Assembly (NCBI GenBank): GCA_012728315.1
Contig: JAAYFI010000026.1
Coordinates: 237,778-301,777 of the forward strand
DNA length: 64,000 nt
From: Gammaproteobacteria bacterium
GTDB taxonomy: Bacteria; Pseudomonadota; Gammaproteobacteria; Pseudomonadales; Pseudomonadaceae
Direction: 5' to 3'
Shown here: in pieces, positions 29,307-31,913 of the stretch
Layout: each line of letters starts with the position of its first letter
Numbering within the stretch: position 1 is the stretch's first letter
Notes under the pieces: model-generated
What the model saw: the letters and a program-made list of their open reading frames with translations, nothing else
Database searches by the model: none
Told to the model about the DNA's origin: nothing
Program-made: the position numbers and the translations under genes

Positions 29307-30404
<1,098 letters not shown>

Positions 30405-30449: not shown

Positions 30450-30487
30450 CTTAACTGCAGATAGCTTTATACTATTCTGCAGTTAAG
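30450..30487. repeat. 12-bp perfect inverted repeat (hairpin) between mreB and mreC
   Basis: CTTAACTGCAGA (30450-30461), 14-nt spacer TAGCTTTATACTAT, TCTGCAGTTAAG (30476-30487). Confidence 0.9.
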
Positions 30488-30503
30488 TCGCCGAGGATGC
30501 ATC

Positions 30504-31424
30504 ATTAAGCCGTTATTTGCTAAAAGTACTTTACTCAGTACACGCTTTTTAATACTCACCTGTTTTTCTGTCGCTTTAATGCTGGTTGATGCGCGCCTTG
30601 AGCTGCTGAAACCGGTGCGCAGTAGCTTGGGTATGGTACTTACACCTTTGTACTGGTTGGGCGATCTGCCCGTGCGCGCTTGGACCGATAGTTTACAGCT
30701 GTTCAGCAGCCGCACAGACCTGCTCGCGGAAAATGAACAGCTGCGCGCGGAAACTTTGTTGATGCAGCGTCGTTTACAGAAGCTGGCGACATTAACTGAG
30801 CAAAATGTGCGTTTGCGTGAGCTGCTAAACTCTTCTGCACTGATTGATGACCGCGTTTTAGTCGCGGAATTAATTGGTATTGATCCCAACCCTTATACGC
30901 ATCGTGTCTTGATCAATAAAGGCAGTAGCAGTGGGGTAACTGTGGGGCAGCCGGTGCTCGATGCCCGCGGGGTAATGGGGCAAGTGATTGAGGTGATGCC
31001 TTACACTTCACGGGTACTTTTAATCACTGACAGTAATCACAGTTTGCCGGTGCAAGTGAATCGAAACGGTTTGCGCGCTATTGCCAGTGGTACCGGTAAT
31101 CTTGAGTCACTGGAATTACGCTATGTGACCGACACTTCCGATATCCGTGAAGGTGACTTATTGGTGACCTCAGGTATGGGGCAGCGTTTTCCTGTGGGTT
31201 ACCCCGTGGCGGTGGTCAGCGAAGTGCAGCGTAATACCGGGCAGCCCTTCGCCCGCATACAAGCATTACCGGCGGCCAACCTCAATCGCAGTCGTTATCT
31301 CTTGCTGGTGTTTAGTGACAGTAAAAGTTCGACGCAAGCGCTGGATGAAGAAGTGCAAAATGCCTTAGAGGATGCGAAACAATTGCTTAAAGCAACTGAA
31401 ACAACGGCAGTGGAGGCGCAATAA
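30504..31424 (+). CDS. mreC: Rod-shape-determining protein MreC, apparently with a non-canonical ATT start
   Basis: ORF track starts at ATG 30579, but the upstream frame reads IKPLFAKSTLLSTRFLILTCFSVALM, the expected N-terminal TM helix; no ATG/GTG/TTG in frame between the stop at 30462 and 30579. Confidence 0.8.
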   Translation: MKPLFAKSTLLSTRFLILTCFSVALMLVDARLELLKPVRSSLGMVLTPLYWLGDLPVRAWTDSLQLFSSRTDLLAENEQLRAETLLMQRRLQKLATLTEQNVRLRELLNSSALIDDRVLVAELIGIDPNPYTHRVLINKGSSSGVTVGQPVLDARGVMGQVIEVMPYTSRVLLITDSNHSLPVQVNRNGLRAIASGTGNLESLELRYVTDTSDIREGDLLVTSGMGQRFPVGYPVAVVSEVQRNTGQPFARIQALPAANLNRSRYLLLVFSDSKSSTQALDEEVQNALEDAKQLLKATETTAVEAQ

Positions 31425-31913
31425 ATGAGTGCGTCGACGGGTAAAGTCACTGTGGTTATGTGGATGACATTAGGCTTAGCTCTATTGCTATCTGTTGTGC
31501 CGATGCCTGAGCACTTAGAAATTGGCCGGCCTTTATGGTTGGCGCTGGTGCTGACATTTTGGGCAATGAATTATCCGCAACATCTAGGCTTATTGACTGC
31601 TTGGTGTTTTGGTATTGCTCAAGATGTCTTATATGGCACGCTCTTTGGCCAGCATGCCTTAGCGCTTGTGTTGGTTGTGTTTCTGGTTTTAACCTTGCAG
31701 CAGCGTTTAAAAGTCTTTCCGCTGTGGCAGCAATCCTTGGCGCTATTGGTTATTTATGGCTTGGCTCAGCTGCTCTTATTGTGGCTCAGTACACTATCGG
31801 GCATGCGCCCTGAAATCAGTTATTATGCTGTGCCGGCTGTGGTCAGTTGTTTGCTATGGCCTTGGCTGTATATGTTGCTGGTTAATGTAAAGCGCTGGCG
31901 CGATTTTCGATAA
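31425..31913 (+). CDS. mreD: Rod-shape-determining protein MreD
   Basis: 162 aa polytopic protein directly after mreC. Confidence 0.93.
   Translation: MSASTGKVTVVMWMTLGLALLLSVVPMPEHLEIGRPLWLALVLTFWAMNYPQHLGLLTAWCFGIAQDVLYGTLFGQHALALVLVVFLVLTLQQRLKVFPLWQQSLALLVIYGLAQLLLLWLSTLSGMRPEISYYAVPAVVSCLLWPWLYMLLVNVKRWRDFR

Follow-up and report, generated by a model that had tools for sequence, protein, structure and literature searches.

An AUH initiation codon at mreC across most Gammaproteobacteria, probably retained for weak translation initiation

Introduction

Genes initiated at AUU, AUC or AUA (collectively AUH) are few, the classic one being infC, the canonical example of discrimination by IF3 (PMC5472188). 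Other non-canonical starts have been described, including, for example, Streptomyces sigR, where a GTC start repressed by IF3 has been proven experimentally and is misannotated in genomes (PMC5472188); S. aureus ccpN (AUA) and cvfC1 (AUU), where extended Shine-Dalgarno (SD) sequences precede start codons yielding ∼10% of the AUG level in reporters in poor medium (PMC13009471); and the Listeria core genes rnhC (ATC) and infC (ATT), where non-canonical starts are fixed (PMC13068326). In Listeria rsbW mutants, the order of start codon efficiency (ATG > ATA > ATT) changes stoichiometry (PMC13068326), and the AUU start of E. coli pcnB limits expression (Binns and Masters 2002, as cited in PMC13009471).

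Non-canonical, IF3-sensitive starts are already known, and it is the membership of mreC among such genes and the breadth of its conservation that are apparently unreported; no earlier report of a non-canonical mreC start was found in a literature search limited to open-access papers. The locus considered here lies in a 64,000-nucleotide stretch of a gammaproteobacterial genome, referred to throughout as the window. The reading proposed, to which a probability of roughly three in four is given, is that mreC of the window is initiated at AUU, with AUH kept at this site for a weak, presumably IF3-discriminated, initiation that would hold MreC at a low dose.

The mreBCD operon of the window

The gene order mreB-mreC-mreD of the window is that of the mreBCD operon, and the three genes form one operon on the forward strand. 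Canonical ATG starts are found for mreB (29367–30404; Pfam PF06723, 484 bits) and for mreD (31425–31913; Pfam PF04093, 89 bits), the latter adjoining the mreC stop codon. The mreC coding sequence (30504–31424; 306 amino acids plus stop) encodes a protein matching NCBIfam TIGR00219 with 210 bits (cut-off 92.75) and Pfam PF04085 with 150 bits (cut-off 28). An in-frame stop, TAG at 30462–30464, lies 42 nt upstream of ATT 30504, and between this stop and the ATG at 30579–30581 no ATG, GTG or TTG was found in the mreC frame of the window, as the first-pass annotation had stated. The latter ATG, 75 nt downstream of the ATT and in frame with it, is the start expected from a gene caller and would correspond to the internal codon Met26.

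The same annotation held that the open reading frame from ATG 30579 loses the N-terminal transmembrane (TM) helix (approximately residues 10–28), and hydropathy agrees, with a best 19-residue value (KD) of 2.11 from ATT 30504 versus 0.87 from ATG 30579; an N-terminal cytoplasmic segment followed by a TM helix is obtained only when MreC is started at AUH. An AGGA had also been noted just upstream of the ATT, and an SD is present as GAGGA (30493–30497), with strong anti-SD pairing and a matching dip in sequence entropy; 7 nt separate the end of its GAGG core (30493–30496) from the start codon. As judged from the sequence, full-length MreC of the window can begin only at ATT 30504–30506, the sole in-frame candidate, which would be read as fMet, there being no canonical codon predicted to give the full protein.

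Conservation of the start codon across relatives

Of 58 relatives, 55 yielded an mreC in a protein search. Start codons were read in genus, order, named and class sets that partly overlap and share ancestry, such that the following counts are not independent events: alignment across relatives placed ATT at the same position in 10/10 available genus members; AUH was present in 107 of the 114 loci of a Pseudomonadales sample (ATT 57, ATC 48, ATA 2), the others having ATG (4), TTG (1) or GTG (1), apart from a single unplaceable site; all 80 named loci, nearly all of them Pseudomonas or Stutzerimonas, had AUH (ATT 61, ATC 17, ATA 2; ATG 0); and 60 of 75 readable loci had AUH when one genome per family was taken across Gammaproteobacteria, with AUG in 12 (Salmonella counted in), GUG or UUG in 3, a further 15 not placeable, and three loci shifted by one codon before counting. 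The start codon in other Pseudomonadaceae is ATC, ATT or ATA.

Several lineages, including Enterobacteriaceae, have AUG at the mreC start; in E. coli, Salmonella and Aeromonas an ATG occupies the same alignment column, and MreC begins MKPIF. In a phylum-level search, MreC matches outside Gammaproteobacteria mostly begin past the N-terminus, so that start codons are not placeable there. This distribution would be best explained if mreC had started at AUH ancestrally, or at any rate for a long time, in most Gammaproteobacteria. The comparison indicates that the ATT of the window exemplifies a conserved AUH start and is not a peculiarity of one genome. A family-level relative (L245) carries GTT AAA at the start site (oriented position 150) after an ATC, with a strong SD, and could initiate at either the GTT or the preceding ATC.

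Exclusion of AUG and Shine-Dalgarno compensation

All four ATN start codons would be read as fMet, and a change to ATG would therefore leave the protein unaltered. At 4-fold degenerate sites of the named mreC genes the third base is G in 44% of cases, whereas at the start wobble position G is found in 0/80. For the start wobble, the tree requires a minimum of 49 substitutions within the set T, C and A, versus 12 between G and non-G. The mreB start is ATG in 51/51 scored loci and the mreD start canonical in 54/55, indicating no general tolerance of AUH in these genomes. Taken together, these counts indicate that the mreC start is kept off AUG by selection, with G excluded while T, C and A interchange.

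The strength of the SD, taken as the energy of pairing between the upstream 20 nt and the 16S anti-SD, has a median of -7.3 kcal/mol before AUH starts versus -2.75 kcal/mol before AUG starts. Just two independent pairs fall on well supported branches, too few for power, and phylogenetic regression was therefore used (PGLS; 183 tips, 16 AUG, lambda 1), giving a shift of +3.5 kcal/mol for AUG (p=3e-6), a value based on a quick tree and this regression. Three AUG lineages (L048, L236 and L264) retain strong SDs, and compensation is thus a tendency. Such a pattern is expected if similar initiation rates result from both pairings, weak codon plus strong SD and AUG plus weak SD.

The association of AUH with strong SDs and of AUG with weak ones would also be produced by epistatic lock-in, in which the combination of AUH and a strong SD traps lineages on a low-expression peak, a change to AUG overexpressing MreC and a weaker SD starving it, while the level of IF3 carries no signal. 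Such a trap is in keeping with the escape of several lineages to AUG, but not with the three AUG lineages in which strong SDs persist, and to account for class-wide retention beside canonical mreB and mreD starts it would need to hold almost everywhere; this alternative is considered possible, at odds well short of even. Maintenance of AUH by selection for weak initiation is the preferred reading.

Coding signature and downstream start codons

Initiation of mreC at ATT 30504, the central claim of the first-pass annotation, is backed by the phase of codon conservation, the conserved SD, the in-frame stops and the TM helix that would otherwise be lost. Entropy by codon position in the named loci is 0.24/0.08/0.89 for codons 2–9 and 0.52/0.09/1.03 for codons 10–16, the first two bases of the start codon being invariant; upstream of the start it is flat (1.18/1.22/1.21), with a dip at -11 to -8 in the named Pseudomonadaceae loci that corresponds to the SD. 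With periodicity present from codon 2 onwards and a flat profile upstream, the coding signature begins at AUH. An in-frame stop, without a canonical start in between, lies upstream in 211/247 AUH loci, as near as -6 nt in some. Initiation at AUH is strongly supported by these sequence comparisons.

Under a second interpretation, MreC translation would begin further downstream, at a canonical codon (ATG 30579 in the window; codon 17, a GTG, in P. aeruginosa), and the conservation upstream would be incidental. This start is the one used by automatic annotation of P. aeruginosa mreC, and codon 26 is ATG in 79/79 named loci scored. The downstream start is nevertheless judged very improbable: codons 2–25 evolve as coding sequence, the position of the first canonical codon is scattered from codon 4 to codon 68, the conserved SD stands before AUH, and the TM helix would be missing or halved in the truncated proteins.

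The effect on annotation is evident in P. aeruginosa entry CP123788.1 (L051, 219–267), where the annotated mreC start is a GTG and the conserved ATC lies 48 nt (16 codons) further upstream. A structural study of P. aeruginosa MreC names Glu188 and Arg190, and assigns the cytoplasmic part and TM region to the first 14 residues (PMC8137920); numbering from the downstream GTG puts E and R at positions 188 and 190, whereas numbering from the ATC puts N and L there, and the published numbering therefore follows the downstream start. For the real P. aeruginosa MreC this predicts 16 additional N-terminal residues and an intact TM helix. As mreC is without a normal start codon, annotation software removes the membrane anchor, at least in P. 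aeruginosa, and the mreC start thereby exposes a recurring annotation error. CP123788.1 itself (1131 bp) was submitted as a plasmid of P. aeruginosa; it is a fragment carrying the end of mreB and mreC, and probably represents a piece of the chromosome left over from assembly.

Intercistronic stem-loop and overlapping mini-ORF

A perfect inverted repeat upstream of mreC had been reported correctly (30450–30487; 12-nt arms at 30450–30461 and 30476–30487, loop of 14), together with an out-of-frame mini-ORF, ATG CAT CAT TAA (30497–30508), that overlaps the ATT; the accompanying hint that both are parts of the start feature was not upheld. The repeat occurs once in the genome, and its stem covaries across nine genus members (L001–L009), with 89.8% of cells paired, a share that drops to 41% or less on sliding, and with compensatory change on both sides in 4 of 12 pairs. 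Mean folding z is -4.4 in the genus versus ∼-0.6 elsewhere, the stem being absent as a class in other genera. No Rfam family scored above its cut-off for the repeat and no terminator-like U-run was found after it; a promoter in the loop (TATACT) was considered and rejected, no consensus promoter being found there. Being genus-specific and single-copy, the repeat was rejected as part of the start mechanism, and is regarded as a separate genus-level intercistronic element, perhaps with a role in mRNA stability or processing.

The overlap of the mini-ORF with the ATT would permit initiation at ATG 30497, with the mreC frame then being reached through either a +1 shift or reinitiation after termination where TAA and ATT overlap. 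This route was rejected, with even slimmer prospects than a downstream start, because the mini-ORF is not conserved: it is kept in 3/10 genus members plus one variant and is absent from the wider set. In addition, its ATG abuts the SD with no spacer in between, and it is probably not used. A sequencing or assembly error that removed a normal ATG, raised beforehand as a cause of the missing start and conceivable for an assembly fragmented into 139 contigs, is refuted by ATT in all ten genus members, single-contig genomes among them, and by AUH in most of the order.

Proposed mechanism and implications

In the proposed mechanism, AUU 30504 would be read by initiator fMet-tRNA, directed by the GAGG SD, to give a 306-residue bitopic MreC beginning M-KPLF. 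AUH would be kept because its initiation is weak, and in combination with a strong SD would set a fixed low level of MreC relative to MreB on the same mRNA; a fixed low MreC:MreB ratio from the shared mRNA is the likeliest purpose of the AUH start. The weak step would most likely be rejection by IF3 of the imperfect codon–anticodon match, a dependence presumed by analogy with infC, pcnB and sigR and with the S. aureus AUU and AUA reporters. Mutation to AUG would overproduce MreC, an excess that would presumably be harmful, and limited MreC expression, suggested by the same analogies, would fit with AUG being excluded and with the compensating SDs.

A more speculative extension, thought unlikely and somewhat less probable than lock-in, is that MreC synthesis acts as a sensor of the translation machinery, with IF3 activity, initiator tRNA and growth rate shifting the MreC:MreB ratio and so coupling cell elongation to translational state throughout Gammaproteobacteria, a link that would have been lost in Enterobacteriaceae. 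An essential or near-essential cell-shape gene held off AUG through most of a class would be a strong natural case for selected codon weakness; the AUH start predicts sensitivity to MreC dosage and makes a coupling of IF3 to cell shape directly testable.

Comparison with known non-canonical starts

A close counterpart is found in the same relatives, where infC has an AUH start followed mostly by AAR (L290–L316), a start context similar to that of mreC (AUH AAR); the two genes have in common an AUH start with an SD, a second codon that is usually AAR, and conservation in the same genomes. They differ in their products: infC encodes IF3 and for that reason is autoregulated, whereas mreC encodes the cell-shape membrane protein MreC (PF04085/TIGR00219), a bitopic component of the elongasome for which we know of no role in translation. 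Evidence for the AUU start of pcnB is, to our knowledge, from E. coli only. Both pcnB and mreC are non-translation-factor genes with an AUU start, which limits expression in pcnB.

Streptomyces sigR resembles mreC in that a non-canonical codon lowers, or in mreC would lower, one protein relative to a partner from the same operon, and in its misannotation; sigR has a GTC start, concerns a sigma/anti-sigma pair and has experimental proof, whereas mreC has AUH and is known here from sequence comparison. The Listeria cases involve different genes in a different phylum, those of rsbW being selected mutants. A conserved AUH start with a strong or extended SD is common to mreC and the S. aureus genes ccpN and cvfC1, although the latter are Firmicutes genes in which conservation extends among Staphylococci or to B. 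subtilis, whereas that of mreC extends through a proteobacterial class.
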